A DNA stretch of 13,130 nt from assembly GCA_937858455.1 (NCBI GenBank), contig CALLYN010000330.1:1-13130 (forward strand), given 5' to 3'. The notes beneath the pieces were generated by a model. It did no database searches and was not told the DNA's origin. It saw only the letters and a program-made list of their open reading frames with translations. Of this stretch, positions 1 through 13,130 are shown one piece after another (the stretch's first letter is position 1; each line of letters begins with the position of its first letter). The stretch comes from an uncultured Kouleothrix sp. (lineage in GTDB: Bacteria > Chloroflexota > Chloroflexia > Chloroflexales > Roseiflexaceae). A program made the position numbers and the translations under genes.

Positions 1-118
1 ATCGGGGACGGGCGGCGCTCGCGTTTCCCGGGGTCGCCGCGGCGCGGCACGACGGCGGCACGGCGGTTGCTGTTCAGCGAGCCCGTCCTCGCATCTTCTT
101 CGGCATAGGAGTCTTAAA

Positions 119-301
119 GTGAAAAGATATGTGACCGGAATCTGTATCTTGATCCTATCGGCCTGCAGCGACCCGCCGCCCCCGCCCGACAGCGGCAGCT
201 GCGACGTCAAGGCGGTCTTCGCGGCCAACGGCTGCACCCGCGCCGGCTGCCACGGCGGCGCCGGGGCAGCCGGAAGGGCCGATCGACGCGTCAAACCCTG
301 A
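119..301 (+). CDS. 5' fragment of a heme-type lipoprotein, truncated at a chimeric join
   Basis: Only the N-terminus is genuine. GTG at 119 is chosen because AGGAG at 107-111 lies 7 bases upstream. A basic start (MKRY) and hydrophobic stretch lead to a lipobox L13-S14-A15-C16, so Cys16 should be lipidated and the protein membrane-anchored. A proline run (19-23) follows, then a cysteine-rich part with C39-x4-C44-H45 followed by Gly-Gly. This resembles the Gly-Cys-His segments of putative heme-binding lipoproteins in myxobacteria and relatives, although the spacing is CX4CH rather than the canonical CXXCH. After about residue 52 the frame becomes an Arg-rich tail (RADRRVKP) that stops at 301, while the neighbouring frame becomes meaningful coding. 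I read this as a gene cut near 255-280 and fused to foreign DNA. The lipoprotein call is good; the heme role is only suggested. Confidence 0.55.
   Translation: MKRYVTGICILILSACSDPPPPPDSGSCDVKAVFAANGCTRAGCHGGAGAAGRADRRVKP
250..285. other. Left chimeric junction (approximate)
   Basis: Coding sense moves from frame 2 (lipoprotein, ending near GGAGAAG) to frame 3. Frame 3 reads GQPEGPIDASNPDD directly into the glucosaminidase-like protein at 306. The crossover sits in a G/C-rich stretch of repeated GGC/GCC units, where short shared sequence could join unrelated reads. The exact base cannot be fixed from sequence alone. Confidence 0.5.
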
Positions 302-803: not shown

Positions 804-1790
804 ATGGCAACCACAAGCTTCGGCCCCAATCTCGGGCACGGCTATACCAAGCTGGTCGTACTGCGCGACGGCGCGATGCTCTCGCCGGTCGTGTTTCCGT
901 CGATCATCGCGCGGGCCACGGGCCGGCCGGCCGGCGCGCTGGTCAAGGAGCGGCGCGTCACGATCGCCGGCCAGAGCTACTGGACGGGCGACGATGCGCG
1001 CCAGCTCAGTGCGAACGCCACCACCAATCTCACGCAGGATCGCCTGGACGATCCGGTCTTTCTGCCGGCGCTGCTGGCGGGCGCGCTGGATCGCGCCGGC
1101 CTGAGCGGGAACGCGCGCGGGGTGTGCGTGTCGTGCCTGCCGGCGAGCTGGTCGAAGGATGCGTCAAAGGCGCGGGCGCTGGGGGCGCGGCTGCGCGAGG
1201 GCGCGCCGAACGTGTTCGATGCCATCCAGATCATCGGCGAGCCGCTGGCGATGGCCTACGCGGCGCTACTCGACAATCGCGGCCAGATCGCCGGCGACGT
1301 GGCGATCCGCGACGGCCGGGTAGCCGCGATCGATCTCGGCCACCACACCGACGACGGCGCAGTGGTCGATCGGCTGCGGCCGGTCGACAGCAGCTACATG
1401 ACCTTTCCCACTGGCACGGCGCGCGCGCTCATTCAGGTGCGCAACCTGTTTATCGCCGCGTTCGAGCGCAACTTCACGCTCGACGAGGTCGATCATGCGG
1501 TGCGCGACGGCGCGATGCGGCTGAATGGTAAGCGCGTGCCGCTGCCCCAGGGGTGGGACCGGCCGATCATTGAGCATGGGCGCGCGGCCGCGAAGCAGTT
1601 CGTCGAGGTGCTCGGTCGCGGCGCGGATCTCGACGCCATCCTGATCGGCGGCGGCGGCGCGGTGCTCGAGCAGAAGATCGCGCCATTTCTCGACGCATTT
1701 CCGAGCGCGATCGTCGTCGATATGCCGCAAATGGCAATCGCGCTCGGCTGCGCGCGCATGGCGGCCTACATTGCGGCGCACGCGCGATGA
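804..1790 (+). CDS. Divergent ParM/StbA-type actin-like ATPase
   Basis: A 328-aa protein with the actin/Hsp70 ATPase layout, close to ParM length (~320). Visible motifs: phosphate-1 loop at residues 7-17 (GPNLGHGYTKL), phosphate-2 at 177-184 (DLGHHTDD), and the adenosine loop at 280-287 (LIGGGGAV). A connecting segment reads I-I-G-E-P-L-A-M-A-Y-A-A, as in StbA/ParM and Hsp70 relatives. ParM proteins polymerise with ATP and push plasmid copies apart; related filaments in some phages position phage DNA. Oddities: the usual Asp of phosphate-1 is Asn9, and the small residues after D-x-G in phosphate-2 are two His (180-181). The nucleotide pocket is therefore divergent, and ATPase activity should not be assumed. 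The stop overlaps the next start as ATGA, indicating translational coupling to a putative adaptor. The family call is strong; the role in segregation is inferred. Confidence 0.82.
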   Translation: MATTSFGPNLGHGYTKLVVLRDGAMLSPVVFPSIIARATGRPAGALVKERRVTIAGQSYWTGDDARQLSANATTNLTQDRLDDPVFLPALLAGALDRAGLSGNARGVCVSCLPASWSKDASKARALGARLREGAPNVFDAIQIIGEPLAMAYAALLDNRGQIAGDVAIRDGRVAAIDLGHHTDDGAVVDRLRPVDSSYMTFPTGTARALIQVRNLFIAAFERNFTLDEVDHAVRDGAMRLNGKRVPLPQGWDRPIIEHGRAAAKQFVEVLGRGADLDAILIGGGGAVLEQKIAPFLDAFPSAIVVDMPQMAIALGCARMAAYIAAHAR

Positions 1791-2095
1791 GTGCCGCGCC
1801 CGCCAGCTTTCGCCTGGGCGCGCACTTTCTGGCCCAGATTGCCCAGGCTGGGGGGAGCCAGTCGGCCGCGGCGCGCGCATACCTGCTGCTCGGCTTCGCC
1901 GCGGCCGGCGTCGCGATGGCGCCCTGGCGGCGCGAGATTGCGCGCTGTCTGGCCGAGGATCTGGCGCCTGAGGTGCTCGACGCGCTGCGGGCGATCGATA
2001 TTCGATCGCCCGCCGCCAGCGCCGAACCGTCGTTACCGTTCCTGCCGCCGCCTGATGACAGCGACCCGCTGCTCTCGGTCGGTTTTCGTGTGTGA
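1787..2095 (+). CDS. Small ParR-like / ribbon-helix-helix candidate coupled to the actin-like gene
   Basis: This 102-aa protein starts at the ATG that overlaps the actin-like gene's stop (ATGA). Residues 7-36 read as a short strand (FRLGAHFLAQI) followed by a turn and a helix beginning S-Q-S-A-A-A-R-A-Y-L-L-L-G. That resembles the strand-helix-helix of CopG/ParR-type DNA-binding proteins, where a Ser-x-Ser starts the second helix. A second helical stretch (about 43-68) follows, then a proline-rich tail with P-F-L-P-P-P-D-D. In type II partition systems the gene after parM encodes ParR, which binds centromere repeats and captures the filament end, in some cases through a C-terminal tail. Position, size and fold pattern fit that job, but I cannot confirm homology; it could be another small regulator. 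The stop lies inside the first copy of a 17-bp tandem repeat. Confidence 0.55.
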   Translation: MSAAPASFRLGAHFLAQIAQAGGSQSAAARAYLLLGFAAAGVAMAPWRREIARCLAEDLAPEVLDALRAIDIRSPAASAEPSLPFLPPPDDSDPLLSVGFRV

Positions 2096-2112
2096 TCGGT
2101 TTTCGTGTGTGA
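2079..2112 (+). repeat. Perfect 17-bp tandem duplication
   Basis: TCGGTTTTCGTGTGTGA occurs twice back to back (2079-2095 and 2096-2112). The first copy encodes the end of the ParR-like protein, including its TGA. The second fills most of the gap before the next gene and its last bases join that gene's ribosome site (GAGGTG at 2111-2116). It may be a slippage duplication, or a small pair of protein-binding repeats. Confidence 0.9.
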
Positions 2113-2120
2113 GGTGTGGC

Positions 2121-2414
2121 ATGACCATCCCTGATGTCATGGCCCGCGCGTCGCTCGACGCGCTGCTGACCTCGTGCTCGCCCCATGAGGTAACGGCGCT
2201 GCGCGCGACGCTGCGGCGCGGCCGGCTGCAGCACGCCGGCGCGGTGATTGCCGTATGCCGTGGCGCGGTCGACCCGCCGGCCGCACCGCTCTTCGACGCC
2301 TGGCTGGCGGCCCTGCCGGCGGCGATTACGCCGGAGACGCACCCCGCTGCTGCCCAGCTCGACGCCTGGCTTGATGCCTGGCTGGCCCGTCGTGTTCAGG
2401 AGGTTCGATCGTGA
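2121..2414 (+). CDS. Hypothetical 97-aa protein
   Basis: I do not recognise this protein. ATG at 2121 is chosen because GAGGTG (2111-2116) sits 4 bases upstream; the frame is open further upstream but overlaps the preceding gene. It is mostly helical and Ala/Leu-rich, with the short motif F/L-D-A-W-L repeated three times (FDAWLAAL, then LDAWLDAWLARR near the C-terminus). No signal peptide, membrane helix or metal motif is seen. The stop overlaps the GTG of the zinc-ribbon gene (GTGA at 2411-2414), so the two are probably translated together within the actin-like operon. It could be a protein-interaction partner of that system, but nothing in the sequence proves it. Confidence 0.6.
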   Translation: MTIPDVMARASLDALLTSCSPHEVTALRATLRRGRLQHAGAVIAVCRGAVDPPAAPLFDAWLAALPAAITPETHPAAAQLDAWLDAWLARRVQEVRS

Positions 2415-2590
2415 TTGTCGTGTGGCTCTTTGCCGCGCTGTGGATTGCCCTGCTCGTATGCGCGGTGCTGTGGTGGATCCCCATCATCATGGGGATGTGG
2501 CGCGTGTGTCGCTGCCCATACTGTCGGCGTGTGCTGACGCGGGAGGTGCACCGCGCGCGGCACTGCCCGATCTGCGACGGGCGCTGGTAG
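2411..2590 (+). CDS. Small membrane-anchored zinc-ribbon protein
   Basis: A 59-aa protein starting at GTG 2411, which overlaps the preceding TGA (GTGA); its TAG overlaps the next GTG (TAGTG). Residues 2-29 form one long hydrophobic helix rich in Trp, Leu, Ile and Val, a clear membrane anchor. The remaining 30 residues hold two CxxC knuckles, C35-P-Y-C38 and C52-P-I-C55, separated by 13 residues with several Arg and two His, typical of a small zinc ribbon facing the cytoplasm or periplasm. Similar tiny membrane zinc ribbons are known in many bacteria, mostly without function. The overlap on both sides argues strongly that it is a real gene. It may tether another operon product to the membrane (inference). 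Confidence 0.75.
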   Translation: MIVVWLFAALWIALLVCAVLWWIPIIMGMWRVCRCPYCRRVLTREVHRARHCPICDGRW

Positions 2591-3288
2591 TGCGCCGCGT
2601 ATCGGTCGTGGTCGTGGACGATGCGCCGATCTGGCGCGCTGGGTTTCGCCAGGCGCTCGCGGCCGAGGCGGATATCGCCGTGGTTGCCGAGCTGGCCGAC
2701 GGCGCCACGGCGCTGGCGTGGCTGGCGACGGCGACGCAGATCCCGGATGTCGCCGTCGTCAGCTGGCAGTCCGATGCGCTGGAGCTGACGCGCCAGCTGC
2801 GCCAGCTCCAGCCGCACATGGGCGTGGTGTTGCTCAGCGAGCACAGCGCGGATCGCTATGTGCTCGCTGCGTTGCAGGCCGGCGCGGCCGACTTCCGCGC
2901 CAAGGAGGTGCTGCCCGGCACGCTCGCGACCGTGATTCGGCGCGTGGCGCGCGGGGAGTATGTGATCAACACCCTGGTGCAGCGCCCGGCGGTGGCCTCC
3001 GGCTTGCTTGCCACCTTTCGTGCGCTGCCCGACGAAGCGGCAGTGTGGCGGCCGCTGAGCGAGCGCGAGATCGCGGTGCTCGAGCACATCGCCGCCGGCG
3101 CCGACAGCGCGGACATTGCGCGCGCGCTCGGCATCAGCGTGCAGACCGTGAAGAACCATATTTCGGCGATCTTGCGCAAGCTCTCGCTGAACGATCGGAC
3201 GCAGGCGGTGATTATGGCGCTGCGCAGCGGCTGGATTGCAGCGCCGGAAGGGGACGCGCATGGAACACACGACGATTGCCGAGCTTGA
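2590..3288 (+). CDS. NarL/FixJ-type response regulator with a non-canonical receiver
   Basis: 232 aa from GTG 2590 (overlapping the previous TAG), about the normal length for the family. Residues 4-123 are a receiver domain: acidic pair D10-D11, switch position S83 (normally Thr/Ser), and conserved K105. The stretch that normally carries the phosphate-accepting Asp (as in D-V-V-L-M-D) reads P52-D-V-A-V-V-S58-W, so the acceptor is Ser. Residues 153-215 are a LuxR-type helix-turn-helix: L156-S-E-R-E-I-A-V-L, then A-D-I-A-R-A-L-G-I-S-V-Q-T-V-K-N-H-I-S-A-I. Such proteins bind promoter DNA as dimers. Loss of the Asp suggests activity not set by a histidine kinase; none is present nearby. It is embedded in the actin-like operon and probably controls it or host genes. 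The C-terminus overlaps the next gene by 29 bases. Confidence 0.85.
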   Translation: MRRVSVVVVDDAPIWRAGFRQALAAEADIAVVAELADGATALAWLATATQIPDVAVVSWQSDALELTRQLRQLQPHMGVVLLSEHSADRYVLAALQAGAADFRAKEVLPGTLATVIRRVARGEYVINTLVQRPAVASGLLATFRALPDEAAVWRPLSEREIAVLEHIAAGADSADIARALGISVQTVKNHISAILRKLSLNDRTQAVIMALRSGWIAAPEGDAHGTHDDCRA

Positions 3289-3989: not shown

Positions 3990-4028
3990 CACACGCCCCC
4001 GTTCTCTCGGAGAGAACGGGGGCGTGTG
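3990..4028. terminator. Strong hairpin between convergent operons, likely bidirectional terminator
   Basis: Perfect 18-bp arms (CACACGCCCCCGTTCTCT and its complement) with a three-base CGG loop, placed between the stop of the secreted-protein gene (3932) and the stop of the minus-strand lysozyme-like gene (4042). No long T-run follows on either strand, so it is not a textbook intrinsic terminator. The stem is very stable and its location serves both transcripts. Confidence 0.75.
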
Positions 4029-4041
4029 CGTTGGTGTTCGG

Positions 4042-4623
4042 CTAGCCCTGGGTGAGCCGGGTTGCGATCGTGGCGATTGTGTCGGCGTAGGTGGTGCCGG
4101 GCACGGCCCAGTGGCCATTCAGGCCGCGCCAGGTGGGCGCTACGCCGCGAAAGCCGGGCGGCAGCCCGCGCACCGCCAGGGCCTGGGCAATCAGCGCGCG
4201 CTGGGCGGGCGTGGCCTGCTCGTCGCGGAGCGCGTAGGCCAGCAGCCGCCCGGCATGGGCGGGCACCGCCTCGTCGCTCCAACGTGCGAACGAAACCCCT
4301 TCGAGCCAGACCCCATCGCGCAGCGCCCACGCCCCGGTCGCCGGCCGCGCGGCGCTTGAGCGGCCGGTCACCCCGATGCCGGCGGGGTTGCGGCGCGGCC
4401 GCTGCGACCACCACGACGTCAGGTTGCCGGTCTCGTGCACCATCTGCGCCAGCAGCATCACCGGATCCATGCCGACGCCGGCGCAGACCGCGAAGTAGGC
4501 GTCCACGATCGTGACGATCGATGGATCGTCGTACCCGCCGTGCGGCCGGCGTCGGATGGCGCGCACGCAGGCCTCGGGCGTGCCGCACGGCGCGGCCAGC
4601 ATGGCGCTGTCGGCGCTGATCAC
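4042..4623 (-). CDS. Phage lysozyme/glucosaminidase-like cell-wall hydrolase
   Basis: 193 aa, GTG start overlapping the previous TGA (GTGA). Residues 40-66 form the conserved helix G51-M-D-P-V-M-L-L-A-Q-M-V-H-E64-T-G, the same pattern as in the hydrolase at 306-767, with Glu64 the likely catalytic acid. N-P-A-G-I-G-V-T-G follows, as in GH73-like glucosaminidases and related lysozymes, which degrade peptidoglycan. There is no signal peptide. It is the last gene of the tail module, so it is either the endolysin or a tail-associated lysin that opens the wall during infection. No holin-like membrane protein is recognisable beside it. The shared helix suggests distant kinship with the plus-strand enzyme, but the remaining sequence differs greatly. 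Confidence 0.7.
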   Translation of the reverse strand: MISADSAMLAAPCGTPEACVRAIRRRPHGGYDDPSIVTIVDAYFAVCAGVGMDPVMLLAQMVHETGNLTSWWSQRPRRNPAGIGVTGRSSAARPATGAWALRDGVWLEGVSFARWSDEAVPAHAGRLLAYALRDEQATPAQRALIAQALAVRGLPPGFRGVAPTWRGLNGHWAVPGTTYADTIATIATRLTQG

Positions 4624-5228: not shown

Positions 5229-7208
5229 CTACGTGAGTAATCCGAACGTGCGCAGCGCGTTGTAGGCCTTTTGCAGCATGCCCTGTTCGGTGGCGGTGTA
5301 GCTCGCGCCGGCGGTGGCGGCACCGCCGGTCTGCTGCGCGGCCGGCGTGGCGCCCAGGAAGCCGATCGTCGGCGCAGCGCCGGTGGAGGCGCCGGTGAGG
5401 AAGTTGCGCGCGCCGGCCGCGTCGTACGCATAGAGCATCATGCGCGCGCGGCGGCTGGCGTGCGTCGCTACATCCCACGTGACGTCGATCTGTGCGGCGT
5501 TCTGGTCGGCGGTCGTGCTGGATTCGAGCAGCCAGCGCGCCGCGCTGCCGAATCCCGCCGCCGCCGTCCCCGAGGTGCTGTGCTTGATCTGCAGCACGTC
5601 GCTCGTCACGTTGGTGATCGCGTCGCTCACCGCCGCAATCAGGCCGGCGTTGGCGTTCGCAACCCCCGAGACGTTCAGCACGCCGTTCACATAGGTGTTC
5701 GTAACGTTCAGCTGCGCCAGGCTGTTGGCGCCGCTGGTCTGCACATACAGCGACCCGATCGTGCCGTTGACCGTGTTCTCGGCCACCAGGTTGGCCCACG
5801 CTTCTTGTGCGCCGCTCGGCGACTTACTGTAGAGGTTCATCACGCTGAGCGGCGCGGGTGAGCCGACGCGGTAGCCCTGTACATAGCCGACGATCGCGCC
5901 GCCGGCCTCGGCCCACGAGACGGAGCGCGTCGCGTCGTAGGCGCTGATCGTCGGCGCGACCATGTGGATGCCGGTCGCGTCGATCACCGTCGAGCCGCCA
6001 CCGGCGTAGAGCTTCCCGTCCGCGAGACTCCAGCGCGCCTGATAGGTGCCGCTGCCGGCGACTGGATCGTAGGTATCGGCGGCGCCGTAGCCGATGAACC
6101 CGCCGTTGGCGTCGCCACTTAGCACGACCCGCGCGCCGCTCTCGGCGGTCTGCACACGCTTGCCGGTGATCGTGAAAGCCGCGTAGATCTTGTCGGCGGT
6201 GATGGTGCCCGCCGCGATGTTGATCGCGCGAATGCTCTCCGCCTCGACGTCGTCGGCCTGCACAATCCGGCGCGGCACGAACTCGCGCAGCGTGCCGCTG
6301 GCGCCGTCGCTCGAGCGGTGGTACAGCCGCACGATGCGGCCGTCAAAGAGCGCCGGCAGGTCGACCCGGCCGTCCGCCGGGATGGTGAACGGCGTGTTCT
6401 GGGCCTCCGCCAGGCTCGCATACTGCGTCAGCGCCGCATAGCCGCCGCTGGCGCTGCCCACCGGCCCGCCGAAGTAGTACACGTTGCCAGTAAGCGTGTT
6501 TGCCGAGTCCTTGCCGCCCGCCACGACGATCACGCCCTGCATGTTCCCGGTCGACGCCAGCGTGATCGGCCGCAGGCGGTTCACGATCTGCCAGTCGGCA
6601 TCCGTCCAGCGCCAGGTCGACGTTGGCGCCGGCAGGATGAGGTTGAACATGTCGAGCTTGAACGACCCCGGCGACGCGACGTTGCCGCACGTGGCGCCAA
6701 AGCGCACGGTCAGGTCGGTGACCGCGAAGGGCGTGGCCAGCGAGGCGCGGTTGGTCCAGCTGGTGCCGTTCGCCGACGTCTCGCAATAGATCGTGCCGCT
6801 CGATTCCCTGATGCGCCAGTACTTGTGGTTGGTGGATGACCAGGTGGCCGTGAACAGGATCGTCGAGACGCCGCCGACGACCTTGATGCAGCGCATCGCG
6901 TTGCTGAGCTGGCTCATCTCCAGGTAGTTGTTGGCGTCAAGGATCAGCTGGAAAAAGGCCGTGGCCGCCACGCCGGTAGCCACCATCGTGCCCACCTGCG
7001 TGGCCGCGCCGTCGCCGGTCAGGTCGTAGTTGGCGTTGCTCTCGTAGTAGGCCGCGTGGCTGCCGGCGACGGAGCTGGGCAGCGTGAACACGGCCTGCGC
7101 GCCGGTTTCGCTGCCGGTCGCGCTGCCGGTTTGCACGAGGTTCCAGCACGGATTGACCAGGTTGTCGTCGAAGGTGTCGCGGAGGTGGGCAATGGGGAAC
7201 GTTGCCAT
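5229..7208 (-). CDS. Large tail fibre / tip protein with concanavalin-like domain
   Basis: 659 aa, ATG at 7208 with AGGAA 6 bases upstream. Residues 1-192 look like a concanavalin/LamG-type sandwich: DTFDDN at 11-16 and Y130-W-R-I-R-E-S-S-G-T-I-Y-C-E-T-S-A-N-G-T-S-W151, the pattern of glycan-binding lectin-like domains. Residues about 195-320 are a second beta-rich region. I336-T-A-D-K-I341 with the following G-K-R-V-Q-T is typical of the C-terminal region of siphovirus tail-tip (gpJ-like) proteins. Residues 395-600 are Ser/Thr/Asn/Gly-rich, probably a fibrous shaft. A helical C-terminus ends in R-T-F-G-L-L-T. Such proteins bind host surface glycans. The lectin-like domain fused to a gpJ-like tail segment suggests a receptor-binding protein. 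The tail-fibre call is well supported; the ligand is unknown. Confidence 0.75.
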   Translation of the reverse strand: MATFPIAHLRDTFDDNLVNPCWNLVQTGSATGSETGAQAVFTLPSSVAGSHAAYYESNANYDLTGDGAATQVGTMVATGVAATAFFQLILDANNYLEMSQLSNAMRCIKVVGGVSTILFTATWSSTNHKYWRIRESSGTIYCETSANGTSWTNRASLATPFAVTDLTVRFGATCGNVASPGSFKLDMFNLILPAPTSTWRWTDADWQIVNRLRPITLASTGNMQGVIVVAGGKDSANTLTGNVYYFGGPVGSASGGYAALTQYASLAEAQNTPFTIPADGRVDLPALFDGRIVRLYHRSSDGASGTLREFVPRRIVQADDVEAESIRAINIAAGTITADKIYAAFTITGKRVQTAESGARVVLSGDANGGFIGYGAADTYDPVAGSGTYQARWSLADGKLYAGGGSTVIDATGIHMVAPTISAYDATRSVSWAEAGGAIVGYVQGYRVGSPAPLSVMNLYSKSPSGAQEAWANLVAENTVNGTIGSLYVQTSGANSLAQLNVTNTYVNGVLNVSGVANANAGLIAAVSDAITNVTSDVLQIKHSTSGTAAAGFGSAARWLLESSTTADQNAAQIDVTWDVATHASRRARMMLYAYDAAGARNFLTGASTGAAPTIGFLGATPAAQQTGGAATAGASYTATEQGMLQKAYNALRTFGLLT

Positions 7209-7217
7209 GCTGTGTTC

Positions 7218-8657
7218 CTACGCGGCGTAGACCACGCCGCCGGATGTGGTGGTGCCGTCTTTGAGGGCGGCGAGGGTGCCGCTGGCGGGCGGGGTGAAGG
7301 TGTTGCCGTCCGAGTCGCTGTAGCTCAGGCCGCCGCGCAGGAAGTCGAGCGTCAGGGCATCCAGCACCACGGCGCTGCTGGTGGTTGTCGAGCTGTACTG
7401 CCCGAAGGCGTCCTTCTGCCTGACCACCACAGTCCACGAGTGCGAGCCGCTGTCGCCCGCGCCACTCAGCTCGTACTGCTGCTCGCTGGCACGCGACTCG
7501 AGCGTGCGCACGGTGCTCCCGTCGCGCTTCCAGACGTACTCCCAGGCGGCGAAGTCGGCCGCCGGCGCGGTCGTGATGGTGGCGACGATCAGCGACATTG
7601 CGCCGCCGGTGAGCGTGACGGCCGGCGCGGCCGGCGCGGCGTTCGTGGCTGTGCCGGTGGCGCTCGCGCTGCTCTGATTCAGCCCGTCGACCGCGATCAC
7701 GCTGTAGCTCAGCGTCGGGTCGGCGCTGCCGTTGTCGCTGATGTTCTTGTCGAGGGCGTAGGTGTAGGTGTTGTTGTACACGCGCCGCGCCCCGAGCGCG
7801 TTGATGTTGAGTAGGTAATAGGCGGCGTCGCTCTGCGCGGCCCAGCTGATGCTCCAGTCGGCGCCGGCCGCGCCGGTGTCACCCGCCCAGCTCTGGCTGA
7901 TGCTGCCGGGCGTGGCGGGCGCCGCCTTCGTCGCGCTCGCGGTGACGATGCTCGAAAACACCCCGCCCCAGCTCCGCGCCCGCAGCTCGACGTAGAGCGA
8001 GGGATCGCCGGCGCCCGAGGTGGCGGCGAGATTCGCCGCGGCGGTCCAGACGTAGCGCTGCGTGGCGTCGTAGATCGTCGCGTAGAGCGTGATTTTGCTC
8101 GCGCTGTCCCAGATTTTGATCTCGATGTCGCGGAGGTTCGCGGAGGTTGGATTGCTCCACGTCACCACCAGGTCGCCGATCCCGGCAAACGCCGCCGCCT
8201 GGCCGCTCGGCGCCGCGGGCGCGGTCGTGTCCGCCGGCGTGGTGGCGCTCGCGCTCGCGCTCCAGTCGCTGTTGCTGTTGCCCACAATCGTCTGGACGCG
8301 CACGTAGTAGGTCGTCGCGACCTTGAGCGGCGCCAGCACCGCCGATGCCTGATTCTGCCCGGTTGACCAGGTGCCGACCAGCTGCGTAAAGCCGCTGTCG
8401 GTTGCCACCTGCACGCGATACGTCTCCTGGTCGTTGGTCTCCAGGTTTGACCAGGTGGCGGCGATCTGCGCGCTGGGCGTGACGGCGCTCTGCAGCAGGC
8501 TGGCCACCAGCGCCAGGTTGGTCGGCGCCGGGATCGTCGGGGGCACCGGCGGTGCGCCGGTGTCCAGGCTGGCGCCCTCCGTGCCGACCGTGGCGTATTT
8601 GTTGGCCGGCTGGTGGTCGATATAGAGGGTTTGTTTGCGCTTGCCGATTCCCGGCAT
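7218..8657 (-). CDS. Fibronectin type III repeat tail protein
   Basis: 479 aa from ATG 8657. After a short basic N-terminus, residues about 41-140, 142-245, 246-340 and 341-430 form four fibronectin-III-like repeats. Each has the Pro-start, W-S or W in strand B, Y-x-V-x-V/Y-Y-x-R-V in strands C-F, and a Ser/Ala/Thr-Pro linker (P-A-P-T-N-L-A-L-V, then S-A-T-T-P-A-D-T-T-A-P-A-A-P). Such repeats are common in phage tail-tip and fibre proteins and act as spacers or weak glycan binders. The last ~50 residues are Gly/Thr-rich. It lies 9 bases before the large fibre gene, so the two probably assemble in the same tip structure. It is a structural protein, not an enzyme, with good confidence. Confidence 0.75.
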   Translation of the reverse strand: MPGIGKRKQTLYIDHQPANKYATVGTEGASLDTGAPPVPPTIPAPTNLALVASLLQSAVTPSAQIAATWSNLETNDQETYRVQVATDSGFTQLVGTWSTGQNQASAVLAPLKVATTYYVRVQTIVGNSNSDWSASASATTPADTTAPAAPSGQAAAFAGIGDLVVTWSNPTSANLRDIEIKIWDSASKITLYATIYDATQRYVWTAAANLAATSGAGDPSLYVELRARSWGGVFSSIVTASATKAAPATPGSISQSWAGDTGAAGADWSISWAAQSDAAYYLLNINALGARRVYNNTYTYALDKNISDNGSADPTLSYSVIAVDGLNQSSASATGTATNAAPAAPAVTLTGGAMSLIVATITTAPAADFAAWEYVWKRDGSTVRTLESRASEQQYELSGAGDSGSHSWTVVVRQKDAFGQYSSTTTSSAVVLDALTLDFLRGGLSYSDSDGNTFTPPASGTLAALKDGTTTSGGVVYAA

Positions 8658-8660
8658 ATG

Positions 8661-10139
8661 TCACCCGATATATTCGCCGGCCCACCACGGGTCGCCGAAC
8701 AGCGTGAAAAAGCTGCCGATGTCCAGGCCGGGCAGGTCGTCGAGGTAGACCGTGGCGCCCGTGGCGCTGCCGTCGATGGTCTGCTTCTGGCTCATGCTGT
8801 ACTGCTCCCAGCCATTGGCATTCGCGTCGACAACCGGCGCCTGCAAGACGCCCCACTGCACCTCGACGTTGGCGCCCTTCACGTACAGCTCTGCGCCGGT
8901 GCGCCAGGGCCAGATCGGCCGCGCGCGGGCCTGAAGCAGAAACTCGGTGTCGATGTTCCGGGTGTAGTGGCGTCGCATCGCGCGAATGCGCCCCCACTGC
9001 TCCGGCCGCGCGTCGATCCGCGCCTTGGCGTTGTTCACCACGGTTGCCAGGCTGTTCAGCCCGCTCACCACGGTCGACCAGGGCGTCGTGCCCTGCGCCG
9101 GGCCGCCGAATTTCGCCGGCAGGCTGGCGTAGGGCCAGCCGCCCGATGGGGCCACCGCGTGCATGATGCTGAGCGTCCAGCGCGTGAATCGGGGCGGGTT
9201 GCTGGTGCCGCCGTTCGAGCAGGTCGCCAGGATGGCGACGGCCACGCGGCTGCCGAGCGCGTAGCTGGTCAGCGGCAGCCGCAGGTCGATCGCCTGCGTG
9301 CCCACCCCGTAGGTCGGCGAGCTGTAGGCCGTCGCGCCGTTCAGCTGCACCACGAAGCTCCAGCCGCTGGTGGTCAGCGACTGCACCACGCCGGTGATGC
9401 GCAGCTCGGCGGTGCTGGTGTAGCGACCGATCGAGCCGTAGATCATGGGCCGGTTGGTGTGCTGCGGATCGCCGTAGCTCGGGTCTTTGAATGGCCCGAG
9501 GTTGTACCACAGCCGCAGGTGCGGCACGATCGGCACGAGCCGCATGCGGTCGTACACCCACTGGATGCTCGTGGCCAGCGCGTTCAGGTTCGCGGCGTTC
9601 ACGGTGCTGGCGCTGAACGACGGCGCCGCGCTCCAGCCGCTCTTCGTCACCGGCGAGAGGTAGACATCCTGCACCTGGTAGTTGGCGCTCGCGCTGTGCG
9701 TGCCCTCGATCCGAATCTCGATGCGGTACACGTCGCCGTCGGTCAGGCCACCCGGCAGGGCGTACGTGCCCGAGAAGGCGCCGAAGCTGCCCGGCGGCGT
9801 CAGGGTCATCGCCAGCGTGCCGCTGCCGCTCGCGTCGGTGCCGTTCCAGTAGACCTTGATTGTCTCGCTGCCGCTCAGCTGCCCCTTCATCTCGACGGTG
9901 AGCGTGGTGCATCCGCTGATGTAGCGCACGCCGCCCCACCAGATCCGCAGTGGCGAGACGGTCGCGTAGTAGCCGGGCGTGTTGGTGTCCACGCCCGTGC
10001 TTGAGTCAAACAGCGGATCGGCGCGGTAGGTCCAGCGATCGACGAGGCCGGCCGCTGCGCGCAGCGTGTTCAGGTCGGTTGCGCTATCCAGCTGGCCGGC
10101 GTTGTCGTAGAAGGTTGGCAGCGTCTCCCAGATCGCCAT
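8661..10139 (-). CDS. Phage tail/baseplate structural protein
   Basis: 492 aa. ATG 10139 is chosen over the in-frame start 18 codons upstream because the upstream part is inside the previous gene and a ribosome-like GGTGGTG sits just before it. The start is one base after the previous stop. Sequence features: aromatic-rich N-terminus (WETLPTFYDNAGQ), a beta-rich middle (residues ~55-170), two segments of the form L-N-x-L-A-T-x-(I/V) (near 190 and 355), and W/Y-rich surfaces (WGGVRY, GWPYASL). It has no enzymatic motif. I do not recognise a named family; by place in the module it should be a baseplate or tail-tip component that carries the fibronectin and fibre proteins. The stop is three bases before the next gene's start. 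Confidence 0.65.
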   Translation of the reverse strand: MAIWETLPTFYDNAGQLDSATDLNTLRAAAGLVDRWTYRADPLFDSSTGVDTNTPGYYATVSPLRIWWGGVRYISGCTTLTVEMKGQLSGSETIKVYWNGTDASGSGTLAMTLTPPGSFGAFSGTYALPGGLTDGDVYRIEIRIEGTHSASANYQVQDVYLSPVTKSGWSAAPSFSASTVNAANLNALATSIQWVYDRMRLVPIVPHLRLWYNLGPFKDPSYGDPQHTNRPMIYGSIGRYTSTAELRITGVVQSLTTSGWSFVVQLNGATAYSSPTYGVGTQAIDLRLPLTSYALGSRVAVAILATCSNGGTSNPPRFTRWTLSIMHAVAPSGGWPYASLPAKFGGPAQGTTPWSTVVSGLNSLATVVNNAKARIDARPEQWGRIRAMRRHYTRNIDTEFLLQARARPIWPWRTGAELYVKGANVEVQWGVLQAPVVDANANGWEQYSMSQKQTIDGSATGATVYLDDLPGLDIGSFFTLFGDPWWAGEYIG

Positions 10140-10140
10140 G

Positions 10141-11613
10141 TCACCACCCGAGGTACTTGGTGTCGCCGCTGCTGTAGGCCTGGCCCACGACATAGAACTG
10201 GCTCATGTCGGGCAGATCCCCGACGTAGGCCAGGGCATACTCGGCGGTGAGGCCGGTATCGTCGTGGCGGATCTCCAGGATGACGTAGGGCACACTGCTG
10301 ATGCCCCATGCGGCGTTACTGAAGAGGATCGTCTGGCCGACCGCGCGCGAGGGCGTGTGCGCGCATCCGCGCACCGTGACGGTCGGCCGCGCCGTGCCGT
10401 AGAACATCGCGTACATCTCGGCCAGGCGGCCGGCGTCGCTCTGTCGCTGGATATAGACGCTCGGCTCGATCTGGCGCTCGATCGTGCCGCTGCCGGCGCT
10501 GATGCTCCCGCTCTCGCCGGCGACGACCGGGTCGCCGCGCAGGGTGACGCGCCACACGGTGCATGCCAGCGATCCGGCATTGGTGACCGTGATGATGATG
10601 CGGCCGGCCTTGACGTCGAGGGTGTGCGTGTAGCCGCCCGCGCCCTGATTGATGCGCGTGCCGTCCTGGCAGGCGACCACGAGCGCGGCCGGCAGGAGCT
10701 GTGTGCCGCCGCTCGCGGTCTCCAGGCGCACGATCGGGTTCTGCGGCTCAATCACGATCGTCACGCTCTCGCCAGGCTCGATGTGGCGCGGCGTGGTGTC
10801 GTCGGCGATCGTCTGCGTGCCCAGGCGCCGGCGCGGCGTGTACTGGCACGTGAATTTGGTGCCGTGCTGAACGCCTGGCTCGGTCGTCTCTTCGGCGCTG
10901 GCGTAGTCGCTGTTGCCGATCGCGTCGGTGGCGGTCGCGCCGGCGTAGCCGAGCACCTGCCGGTAGCGCACGACGCCGCTGGCGTCCTGGTAGAGCTGGC
11001 CGCCGGAGGCCTGCGCGAGCTTCAGGCACTCGGCCCAGGTGTCCTCGCCGGCCAGCCAGGCGTAATCCGGCGCGATGAGCGCGTGGTCGCAGCTGTAGTA
11101 GAACGTTGCGGCGGGGTAGCTGCCGGCCTGCTCGGCCGGGCGGCCGCCGCATTGCCACATGGCGTAGTTGATCAGGCCGCCGGCGTACGCGGGGTTGGTC
11201 GGATCCTCGACGCTGCTGGCGCTGGTCTTCGTCGCGGCCGGCCGGCGCACGACCATGGGCGAGTAGATCTTGGTGGCGGCGATCAGCGTCTTCATCCCCG
11301 CCGCCTCCAGGTCGCAGGTGTCGAGCGTGCGGTGCAGCTTGGTGATCACGCCGGTGAACGTGCGCGCGGTCGTGTCGCCACTGTTGTAGGTGGTGTAGCG
11401 GATCGGCTGCTGGTAGCTGAGGCTGGACCAGAGGCTGTAGAGCAGCTGGCCCGAGATCGTCGCGTCGGTATCGTCGCCGAATGCCAGCGCATTCGCGGCG
11501 TTGCCGCTGATCTTCCAGCTGCCGCCGATGCGCAGCACCGCGCTGTCGGCCACGGCTGTCCACACGCCGCCGATCTTTAGCTCGAGCAGATAATCTGCGA
11601 TGCTGACGCCCAC
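10141..11613 (-). CDS. Tail hub-like protein (phage tail-tip/baseplate)
   Basis: 490 aa from GTG 11613, one base after the preceding stop; AGGTG lies a few bases upstream. The N-terminal 130 residues (ISGQLLYSLWSSLSYQQPIRY, T-F-T-G-V-I-T-K-L-H, C-D-L-E-A-A-G-M-K) follow the beta-strand pattern of phage tail-hub proteins such as those of the gp27/Tal type, where such strands form the ring at the tail tip. A second beta domain follows (about 150-300), then a C-terminal region with D-D-T-G-L-T-A-E-Y-A-L-A-Y-V. No peptidase or lysozyme motif is seen, so the wall hydrolase is supplied by other genes. The hub assignment is a moderate-confidence inference based on position after the Dit-like gene and on the strand pattern. 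Confidence 0.6.
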   Translation of the reverse strand: MGVSIADYLLELKIGGVWTAVADSAVLRIGGSWKISGNAANALAFGDDTDATISGQLLYSLWSSLSYQQPIRYTTYNSGDTTARTFTGVITKLHRTLDTCDLEAAGMKTLIAATKIYSPMVVRRPAATKTSASSVEDPTNPAYAGGLINYAMWQCGGRPAEQAGSYPAATFYYSCDHALIAPDYAWLAGEDTWAECLKLAQASGGQLYQDASGVVRYRQVLGYAGATATDAIGNSDYASAEETTEPGVQHGTKFTCQYTPRRRLGTQTIADDTTPRHIEPGESVTIVIEPQNPIVRLETASGGTQLLPAALVVACQDGTRINQGAGGYTHTLDVKAGRIIITVTNAGSLACTVWRVTLRGDPVVAGESGSISAGSGTIERQIEPSVYIQRQSDAGRLAEMYAMFYGTARPTVTVRGCAHTPSRAVGQTILFSNAAWGISSVPYVILEIRHDDTGLTAEYALAYVGDLPDMSQFYVVGQAYSSGDTKYLGW

Positions 11614-11614
11614 G

Positions 11615-11995
11615 CTACACCTGCCGCACGGTGATTGCGCACGCCCAGAAGCTGGCGCCGCTCAGGTCGTTAAAGGCCCAGGAGGGCTCGAACGGGTCGT
11701 CGATGAAGCACGTGTAGGTGGCGCCGTCGAAGTCGGTCATGCTGAAGCTGCTGCCCAGCGCGGCGAGGGTGGCGAGCGCCAGGCGGGTGGCGTTGTTGCA
11801 GCCGTCCCAGTCGATCTTCCACGCGCGCTTGGGGCTTGCGCGCTCGACGCGATTGTGCGTGCCGTCGGCGGCCACAAGCGTGGTGCCGATCTTCTCGATT
11901 TTCGGCACGTAGCCGGTTGGCTGCCAGGCGCTCTGGTTGCCGGTGCCATTCGGCAGGCCGCTGTAGGTGGTGCCGTTGATGATCAGGTAGCTCAT
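11615..11995 (-). CDS. Small Dit-like phage tail protein, 126 aa
   Basis: ATG 11995 overlaps the preceding TGA (ATGA), and GAGGAGG lies about 10 bases upstream. The protein has a two-part pattern: N-terminal strands (SYLIINGTTYSG, then V-P-K-I-E-K-I-G-T), and a central W-K-I-D-W-D-G followed by an Ala/Leu helix and S-S-F-S-M-T-D-F-D-G-A-T-Y-T. This W-x-(L/I)-x-W, helix, F-x-(L/M)-x-D-x-D-G-x-x-Y-x pattern resembles the N-domain of distal-tail (Dit) and small tail-tip proteins of siphoviruses. Those form a hexameric ring joining the tail tube to the tip. It sits between the probable tape measure and the hub, exactly where Dit is expected. Confidence in the phage tail class is good; the Dit label is tentative. 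Confidence 0.6.
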   Translation of the reverse strand: MSYLIINGTTYSGLPNGTGNQSAWQPTGYVPKIEKIGTTLVAADGTHNRVERASPKRAWKIDWDGCNNATRLALATLAALGSSFSMTDFDGATYTCFIDDPFEPSWAFNDLSGASFWACAITVRQV

Positions 11996-12124
11996 CCCGC
12001 CACGCCTCCTCGATTGCCGATCGCTTTGACTGCGCCCGTGGTCTCGCGCGTGGCGCGCTCGATCGTGGCCAGCGCGGCCACAATGGCATCGCGCGCGCGG
12101 TCGATCGCGGATGCCAGCGCGTCG
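11992..12124 (-). CDS. C-terminal end of a phage gene, possibly tape measure (truncated)
   Basis: Only about 43 codons survive before the right join. They read D-A-L-A-S-A-I-D-R-A-R-D-A-I-V-A-A-L, then a helix rich in Thr/Glu/Arg and the end G-N-R-G-G-V-A-G. The stop overlaps the Dit-like ATG as ATGA, so this is a genuine neighbour in the tail operon. The Ala-rich helical content and position suit the C-terminus of a tail tape measure protein. The upstream coding that joins it is foreign (see the ubiK fragment). Confidence 0.5.
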
Positions 12125-12140
12125 CCCTGCGCGGCGCCCG
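12110..12140. other. Right chimeric junction (approximate)
   Basis: One continuous minus-strand frame reads from an alphaproteobacterial UbiK N-terminus (ending about residue 25) straight into phage-like C-terminal sequence. The change falls in a G/C-rich GCC/GCG stretch. No family protein should have both halves, so two unrelated genes have been joined here. Confidence 0.6.
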
Positions 12141-12198
12141 CGGCGTCGTTCATCAGGCGGCCGATCTCGTCGAAGAACCGGTTGTTGGTCTGGGTCAT
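12125..12198 (-). pseudogene. ubiK: 5' fragment of UbiK/BMFP accessory factor gene
   Basis: The first 25 residues (MTQTNNRFFDEIGRL, then M-N-D-A-A-G-A-A-Q-G) match from memory the conserved N-terminus of the UbiK/YqiC (BMFP-domain) coiled-coil proteins of Rhizobiales. These assist ubiquinone biosynthesis and the larger protein is about 80-100 aa. Start is ATG 12198, with GGAG 9 bases upstream; an ATG at 12225 is in frame but lacks this site. The rest of the protein is missing because the reading runs into phage DNA at about 12124. The gene would be divergent from the dienelactone hydrolase. Confidence 0.6.
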
Positions 12199-12247
12199 CG
12201 CAAAATGCTCCGCTTTCGTAGGCATGCACGGTCAGGAAAATGGCAAT

Positions 12248-12272
12248 GCCGGGCCTTCAGTTCAAGCCCGGC
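12248..12272. repeat. Inverted repeat between divergent genes
   Basis: GCCGGGC (12248-12254) and GCCCGGC (12266-12272) are perfect 7-bp arms with an 11-base loop, lying between the ubiK fragment and the dienelactone hydrolase gene. It may be an operator or mRNA leader hairpin; there is no T-run, so a terminator is unlikely. Confidence 0.45.
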
Positions 12273-12367
12273 CTGCCGGCGGCTCTGCTTGTCATATTCC
12301 CCTTTCCTTGCAATCGTATCCGAACGCGAACGAAAAATTGGAATCAGCAGGCAGCGGCGGAACACCC

Positions 12368-13099
12368 ATGATCGATAGCCAGGTCGATATCCCGACCAAG
12401 GACGGCAAGACGACCACGTTCATCACTCACCCGGAACGCGGGGGACCGTTTCCGGTCATCATCTTCTACATGGATGCGCCGGCCATCCGCGAGGAGCTGC
12501 GCGACATGGCGCGCAGGCTCGGCACCTCGGGCTACTACGTCATGCTGCCCAATCTCTATTACCGTTCCGGCGTGATGGAGATCGGTCCGGTACCGCCGGA
12601 CCCGGAAGCGCCCGAGCGCAAGCGCATGTTCGAGCTGATGAACTCGATCAACATCCCGCTCGTGATGGAAGACACCAAGGCCCTGCTCGCCTACGCCGAA
12701 GGGCAGAAGGCGGCGAACACGAAAATCGTCGGCACCGTCGGCTACTGCATGAGCGGCCGCTACGCCGTCAATGCAGCCACGCAGTTCAGCGACCGGGTCA
12801 AGGCCGCCGCCTCGATCTACGGTACGCACCTGGCCACCGACCAGCCGGACAGCCCGCATCTGGCGGCGTCAAAGACAAGGGCCGAGCTCTACTTCGCCTG
12901 CGCCGAGAGCGACATCTACGCGCCGCAGGAGATCATCGACAAGGTGGCTGCCGGCATGAAAGGCACGAAGAACGAAGTCGAGATCTATCCCGGCACCCAT
13001 CACGGCTTCGCCTTCCCCAAGCGCCCGGTCTACCACCGCGACGCCGCCGAGCGGCATTGGGAGCGGCTCGTCTCGCTCTACCGCCGCAATCTCGTCTGA
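12368..13099 (+). CDS. Dienelactone hydrolase family protein
   Basis: 243 aa, complete, about the normal length for the family. It is an alpha/beta-hydrolase with the cysteine nucleophile in G125-Y-C127-M-S-G, catalytic Asp182 in A-E-S-D-I-Y, and His212 in H-H-G-F, the Cys-Asp-His triad of dienelactone hydrolases. Strand pattern and F-Y-M-D-A-P-A-I-R-E-E near residues 33-43 match a common alphaproteobacterial subgroup. Known members hydrolyse dienelactones in aromatic degradation, but this broad family includes many uncharacterised esterases, so the substrate is unknown. It is cytoplasmic with no signal peptide. ATG 12368 is chosen because family-like sequence starts here; the longer open frame reaching back to 11600 is antisense to the tail genes. 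It lies in the right-hand foreign segment and is not part of the phage element. Confidence 0.88.
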   Translation: MIDSQVDIPTKDGKTTTFITHPERGGPFPVIIFYMDAPAIREELRDMARRLGTSGYYVMLPNLYYRSGVMEIGPVPPDPEAPERKRMFELMNSINIPLVMEDTKALLAYAEGQKAANTKIVGTVGYCMSGRYAVNAATQFSDRVKAAASIYGTHLATDQPDSPHLAASKTRAELYFACAESDIYAPQEIIDKVAAGMKGTKNEVEIYPGTHHGFAFPKRPVYHRDAAERHWERLVSLYRRNLV

Positions 13100-13130
13100 T
13101 CGCCCGACTCGATGCCCTTCCTCGCCATCG

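Follow-up and report, generated by a model that had tools for sequence, protein, structure and literature searches.

Actin-like ATPase and ParR-like adaptor genes recur as a pair in Chloroflexota phages and integrative elements, with a probable centromere inside the adaptor gene

The stretch of DNA analysed here (the window) is a 13130-base contig (C330) within a 5.1-Mb draft genome of 1123 contigs. Two of its open reading frames, 804-1790 and 1787-2095, both on the + strand, overlap by an ATGA at 1787-1790, and the following features were distinguished in and around them:

804..1790, + strand: actin-like ATPase (ParM/Alp type), 328 aa, by PF17989, PHROG_691 and ParM profile matches
1787..2095, + strand: small adaptor, ParR-like by anatomy, 102 aa, by alignment A2 and recurring association
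1805..1900, + strand: adaptor residues ~7-38, a putative ribbon-helix-helix-like part, by hhalign to RHH_1
1987..2013, no strand assigned: palindrome GCGGGCGATCGA-TAT-TCGATCGCCCGC, a perfect inverted repeat in linker-coding DNA, centromere or operator candidate
2057..2092, + strand: codons for the conserved tail DSDPLLSVGFRV at the C-terminus, a probable filament-binding peptide, by A2 conservation
2079..2112, no strand assigned: two exact tandem copies of TCGGTTTTCGTGTGTGA, spanning the adaptor stop codon, top-scoring tandem-repeat row
2121..2414, + strand: 97-aa ORF after the pair, matched by tblastn (35%, E 2e-10) at L039:5609-5905
5229..11613, - strand: four long tail-side genes, a module that runs convergently to the partition-like operon, with homologues in L039

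The product of the first gene (hereafter ALP) matches the Pfam family ALP_N (PF17989) at E 4.9e-9, over the curated cut-off, and PHROG_691 ('partition protein') along residues 10-320 at E 9.3e-22. The solved structures nearest to its profile are the ParMs of C. botulinum, pSK41 and pCBH, with CorM, Desulfitobacterium cParM and Ta0583 also among the nearest, and by these matches we identify it as an actin-like ATPase of the ParM/Alp type. A search of about 5.8 billion proteins, in which scoring was limited to the 8000 candidates with the most words in common, gave at least 39 homologues, the window's own protein among them; 37 make up the rows of alignment A1, from which two short fragments were omitted, and one relative, P0004, is 64% identical. 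The first nucleotide-loop motif of the ALP reads N-x-G-H-G-x-x-K in the window, its residue 9 being encoded at 828-830, and N9 is invariant in 37 of the 37 rows of A1. The corresponding motif in the ParM of 6izr is DLGYGQIK (register read by eye, the printed alignment being offset), so that N9 stands where ParM has its catalytic-type Asp; loss of that residue could make for slow hydrolysis or stable filaments.

Among genomes, the ALP was found in 16 of the 158 of the window's class and in 26 of the 400 of its phylum, the window's own genome counted in both and many of the phylum extras being weak partial matches; among the hosts with names are Chloroploca, Oscillochloris, Herpetosiphon and Viridilinea. 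The Chloroflexota setting given in the preliminary description is confirmed. Ten IMG/VR records carry the ALP, and an eleventh was added by further subset alignment. As a single query the window's ALP found no close relatives in viral or genome contigs, whereas alignment A1 did; with tblastn it had no match among the 50,697 phage records of INPHARED and a single weak one (32%) among the 72,556 plasmid records of PLSDB. The titles and abstract openings surveyed include no report of a ParM from a Chloroflexota phage. One of the loci, L032 (JAAUTF010000273.1), is apparently the same 7668-base contig as G021:C459; its record title names Candidatus Gracilibacteria, against a genome placement in the window's order, and the bin is probably misnamed.

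An adaptor-type gene lies 3' of the ALP in 21 of the 22 loci whose 3' flank is complete (the window, L032-L036, L038-L044, L046-L048 and L062-L067), the sole exception being L048, which has the ALP and no adaptor. For this count the adaptors of L062-L067 were read from the shorter copies L014-L017, L025 and L028, and those of L033, L035 and L036 in L010, L012 and L009 respectively; left outside it were the fragments L022, L023, L024/L037 and L029, the distant locus L021, and a distant clade of L019, L020, L026 and L031. The two genes overlap in most loci, by ATGA or GTGA; the adaptor gene is frameshifted in L034 and continues into a membrane protein in L038. The preliminary description had reported the ATGA overlap between a ParM/StbA-like gene and a 102-aa gene, had seen in it the layout of a type II partition system, and had named the lack of any such association in related genomes as what would speak against it: the overlap is present, the ALP_N and PHROG_691 matches bear out the first gene, and the order of ALP then adaptor in one operon recurs at the rate just given.

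The window's adaptor directly matches 8 of the 30 long loci at E<=1e-3 (L032, L035, L045, L038, L039, L040, L042 and the second adaptor of L046), two of which, L035 and L045, are one locus. The others were assigned through position and alignment, at 20-57% identity to the window's, and we in part infer that all these genes form one family. A single-sequence protein search with the adaptor returned one homologue, P0002, 57% identical; for P0002 and for P0004, the ALP relative, the longest contig on record has 3022 bases in each case, which suggests that they share one contig. No convincing adaptor match was found at three distant Chloroflexota ALP loci (L129-L131). Some loci depart from the simple pair. 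An HNH endonuclease gene stands between ALP and adaptor in L039 (L039:4541-5080), and another is fused to the ALP C-terminus in L041/P0015 (L041:10001-11317). At L046:12075-12589 a second adaptor (12233-12589) directly follows an ALP remnant, an intact pair lying elsewhere in the record. In L012, L026, L032, L040 and L042 a protein of ~150-240 aa, multi-spanning by eye, follows the pair and is a possible extra component of the module. In the distant ALP clade (L019, L020, L026 and L031) the ORF that abuts the ALP is short and differs in sequence, and 3' of it, not within it, lie short repeats: GTGTTGAAC in L019 and L020, TGTATGACA in L026 and L031. These downstream repeats are possibly the usual intergenic form of an adaptor site.

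The 20 adaptor rows of alignment A2 share a folded part of ~70 residues, in which we recognized by eye a strand, a short helix, a G-N-x-S turn, a hydrophobic helix and, at its end, two more likely helices. There follows a linker of highly variable length, rich in Pro and Ala, and then a conserved C-terminal end with the consensus DPxxxVGxxV, of which D93 is nearly invariant. ParR is described as a beta-alpha-alpha ribbon-helix-helix (RHH) domain with extra helices, its C-terminal tail binding a hydrophobic pocket of ParM (PMC5016525), and is said to be without a characteristic key motif (PMC12270681); judged from the alignment, the anatomy of the present adaptor (short folded part, variable linker, conserved tail) is that of ParR. 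The CopG/ParR-like pattern that the preliminary description had seen in the 102-aa protein amounts to no database hit, because the window's adaptor has no Pfam match over the cut-off (the best, SDR-like, at E 0.0047 with 18 bits vs 24.7) and, among PHROGs, none below E 0.47; across the 20 members nothing in PHROGs was better than 0.049, and the best result of a PDB profile search, at 0.94, is no match. Alignment by hhalign to RHH_1, using 11 of 13 RHH_1 hits (L054 and L056 dropped), covers 17 columns with prob 18.5 and score 18.3, while 100 column shuffles reach at most prob 1.5 and score 12.3. The aligned columns are the strand and first helix in the expected register, the second helix being unaligned. 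The 102-aa gene itself is borne out by its recurrence, and the RHH match is suggestive only; an RHH fold of the N-terminal part is likely but unproven.

The preliminary description also placed the pair beside a tail module in a phage-like element, and on both counts the relatives agree with it. The four tail-side genes (o5229, fn3_7218, o8661 and o10141, one of them with an fn3 and tail-fibre J-like match) are matched at 39-55% identity by genes that keep their order and stand next to the ALP-adaptor pair in G504, the virus record comprising L039 plus L108. G504 is colinear with the window through ALP, adaptor, the homologue of 2121-2414 and the convergent tail-side homologues, and has a gene for a major head protein (PHROG_212, E 2.3e-32). 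Genes for tape-measure and tail proteins are present in G507. A tyrosine integrase is present in 5 of the 10 virus records; none was seen in G504, which resembles the window most and may be a fragmentary record. L062 and L067 are two of the six loci taken from the genus Herpetosiphon: the former sits on a 6.3-Mb contig, and their pooled ORFs include integrase, primase-helicase and Replic_Relax families. Integrase, FtsK and IstB/DnaA-like domains occur in the pooled ORFs of L033 and L035, and the copy of the module in L117 is a 34-kb virus record in IMG/VR. Taken together, the integrases, the head and tail genes and the 6.3-Mb contig mark the carriers of the module as temperate phages and integrative elements. 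The further suggestion of a phage-plasmid found no specific support in these records, given the integrases in half of the virus records and in Herpetosiphon and the contig of L062; a plasmid state is possible, and transient extrachromosomal DNA is the more likely cargo of the module.

Both ends of the window (1-301 and 11992-13130) look foreign to the phage. The first holds a short lipoprotein-like start with an abrupt end, by eye; the second holds a BMFP-like ORF and a dienelactone hydrolase, and with 0.632 at 12001-12600 it includes the lowest GC of the profile. They may be host junctions or the product of an assembly chimera; as an insertion site the right end offered no tRNA and, for the flank DNA, relatives with only short matches. 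Each of the two convergent gene groups includes one weak, below-cut-off glucosaminidase-type protein (306-767 and 4042-4623), likely endolysins by these matches. A NarL/LuxR-type response regulator is encoded at 2590-3288 within the phage-like stretch, with no match in the 30 related long loci.

When the DNA 3' of the ALP was printed in columns of 11 bases, arrays appeared within the adaptor gene, in its linker-coding part. Of 18 loci, 7 have sites of the form GTTSAAC near the 3' end of the adaptor gene; 5 of the 7 are related Herpetosiphon copies, and the other 11 loci, the window included, lack such sites there. Their offsets are 215, 226, 237 and 248 in L042, 209, 220 and 231 in L039, 222, 244 and 255 in L067, and 222, 255, 288 and 321 in both L062 and L065; over the seven loci every one of the 18 intervals is a multiple of 11 bp. 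By eye, other linkers have other units: GGTTATACC in L035, GTAGGACA in L040 and alternating 12-mers in L043. The linker of L046's second adaptor has a 10-bp unit.

Repeats cluster in the linker-coding DNA across the family when repeat density is compared with windows of the same contig (16 loci, Fisher p 2.3e-7, computed on the same loci from which the linker-centromere hypothesis arose), and six loci have p<0.05 singly (L035, L042, L043, the second adaptor of L046, L062 and L067). For this test L063, L065 and L066 were omitted because they nearly duplicate L062, and L044 and L046's first adaptor because they nearly duplicate L047; L038, which has no linker, was also omitted, and the second adaptor of L046 was added. 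No enrichment was found in the fold-coding part (Fisher p 0.15, 0 of 16 loci below 0.05), 3' of the adaptor (p 0.87, 1 of 16) or 5' of the ALP (p 0.54, 1 of 15, namely L047), the ALP start in this last test being set 985 bases before the adaptor start in 13 loci (approximate) and by hand in 2, with 1 locus omitted. The pattern GTTSAACN4GTTSAAC has 8 places in 14 genomes or records, 6 of them within adaptor linkers (one in G048, two in G504 and three in G507); each of 11 bacterial genomes has 0 or 1 occurrence of this 11-bp pair, and the backward-read control pattern has one place, in G048. The remaining two of the 8 places lie outside adaptor linkers: the frame at the one in G041 reads as an unrelated protein (NUDIX-like by eye), and the 8 kb surrounding the one in G047 have no convincing adaptor or ALP match. 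Three further subset alignments added one new record, L117, whose adaptor and linker are identical to those of the L015/L062 locus, and thus yielded no independent loci on which to repeat the comparison.

In the window itself, the palindrome at 1987-2013 has 12-bp arms and matches the 11-bp arrays of the relatives in position; apart from an apparent terminator at 3990-4028, the 13130 bases hold no other perfect inverted repeat with arms >=10 and loop <=8. The preliminary description had pointed to 768-803 and 2079-2112 for centromere repeats: the latter proved to hold an exact 17-bp tandem repeat, the window's longest exact tandem duplication and the best of 22 tandem-repeat rows, and the former only a short AT-rich palindrome. 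This upstream palindrome was set aside, there being no repeat enrichment 5' of the ALP, and the candidate centromere lies instead in the 3' part of the adaptor gene. The window's linker has an ordinary repeat density (p 0.17), and its palindrome and tandem repeat were picked after inspection and are, taken alone, weak evidence of a centromere; one or the other may be the window's own.

These arrays suggest that the DNA sites which the adaptor would bind probably sit inside the linker-coding part of its own gene, as an intragenic centromere. Such a centromere is not new as such, because a chromosomal parS inside a ParB-type gene is known from ParABS. For type II systems, R1 ParR is reported to require at least two 11-bp repeats, with parC usually upstream of parM (PMC9426499); the titles and abstract openings surveyed gave no natural case of a centromere within or 3' of parR, and the sole phrase of that kind that we found describes an engineered construct (PMC4911067).

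Several known systems bear comparison. ParMRC (R1, pSK41, pB171) is alike in its actin-like ATPase followed by a small adaptor gene, in an adaptor that joins an N-terminal part, RHH-like by pattern, to a C-terminal tail, and in direct repeats of 10-11 bp, here in part of the family; it differs in that the present adaptor is without a Pfam match above cut-off or a PDB sequence match, in that the repeats lie inside the adaptor gene and not upstream of parM, and in the carrier, here a phage or integrative element. AlpAC-alpS of the Corynebacterium prophage CGP3 likewise has a prophage-borne actin-like protein and a DNA-binding adaptor in one operon, the binding being predicted in our case. In CGP3, however, the adaptor comes first and AlpA binds upstream of its own operon, the alpS sites lying in the upstream promoter region (PMC4446434), whereas the present family has no repeat enrichment there. 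SrpMRC of the SXT/R391 ICEs is also a type II-like partition system in an integrative element with short direct and inverted repeats, and its SrpR too is described as without homology to known ParR; its srpC differs in lying upstream of srpM and in having 13-bp repeats (PMC4489591). The chromosome-encoded cParMs of Desulfitobacterium and C. botulinum and CorM make up a last group, from which Desulfitobacterium cParM and CorM are among the ALP's nearest solved relatives by profile, CorM being compared by PDB name only; the main text of the cParM paper makes no mention of Chloroflex, prophage or Herpetosiphon (PMC12270681).

We read the pair, with a probability of about 0.65, as a ParMRC/AlpAC-like module with which a temperate Chloroflexota phage positions DNA, the module's sites lying in the adaptor linker DNA. 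By analogy the module most likely acts like R1 ParMRC, AlpAC and SrpMRC with the difference that its sites are inside the adaptor gene. Adaptor dimers would bind short, helically phased DNA sites through the N-terminal domain, these sites being located in the linker-coding part of the adaptor gene; the flexible linker would present the C-terminal tails, which would capture the actin-like filament at its end; and the filament, as it grows, would move or separate extrachromosomal phage DNA, whether excised or replicating. We infer DNA binding by the adaptor, tail-filament contact, polymerisation of the ALP, movement of DNA and the role in the cell.

What the filament would be for admits a second answer, namely that the actin-like protein organises phage replication or localises it at the membrane, in the manner of AlpC, and does not segregate copies at cell division. 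We hold this to be only a little short of an even chance: AlpAC is reported to be induced early and its loss to lower circular phage DNA (PMC4446434), and the integrases of the virus records point to a transient circular form, but the replication-type genes of the two Herpetosiphon loci also fit partition of a replicating form, and the observations agree with either use.

The linker repeats themselves could have arisen by slippage or from low-complexity, proline-rich coding and play no part in binding, the genes then being an ordinary ParMR pair with its centromere elsewhere. The Pro/Ala-rich linkers of unconstrained length accord with this, as does the window's 17-bp repeat, a simple tandem duplication; moreover, 10 of the 16 loci are not significant singly (L032, L033, L041 and L047 least so), and in L062 and L065 every GTTSAAC spacing is 33, in codon phase. 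Against it, 11 of the 18 intervals are not divisible by 3, so that those repeats are maintained at the level of DNA and not of the peptide (the seven intervals of 33 bases are uninformative); and the GTTSAAC core at 11-bp phase is common to the phage records G504 and G507 and to the Herpetosiphon elements. Autocorrelation of the linkers of 15 representative loci gave z values of 4.15 at lag 11, 4.37 at lag 12, 3.0 at lag 22 and 3.42 at lag 33, against -3.3, 2.66, 0.46 and 2.76 in the fold-coding part of the same genes, values that are uncalibrated because z falls as low as -4.8 (linkers) and -4.0 (control) at other lags; the 12-mers of L043 must weigh on lag 12. On balance we consider an origin by slippage or coding bias rather unlikely.

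RHH proteins are often repressors. It is quite improbable that the adaptor serves chiefly to repress its own operon, with the linker palindromes as operators or roadblocks and the filament working without it or with another adaptor: pSK41 ParR does autoregulate via parC (PMC4911067) and the window holds a single palindrome and no array, but a pure repressor has no obvious role for the conserved C-terminal tail, and the sites lie ~1.2 kb downstream of the operon start, with no repeat enrichment upstream.

A distinct actin-like family, equipped with its own adaptor, is hereby added to the phages and integrative elements of Chloroflexota. It is, to our mind, an even bet that this is a phage partition family in which the DNA coding for the disordered linker carries helically phased adaptor-binding sites and doubles as the centromere, adaptor specificity and site being inherited as one piece. 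If the centromere is intragenic, this would be a compact three-in-one segregation module, which would offer a route to test the co-evolution of adaptor and site and whether phages use such filaments in replication, inheritance or both.
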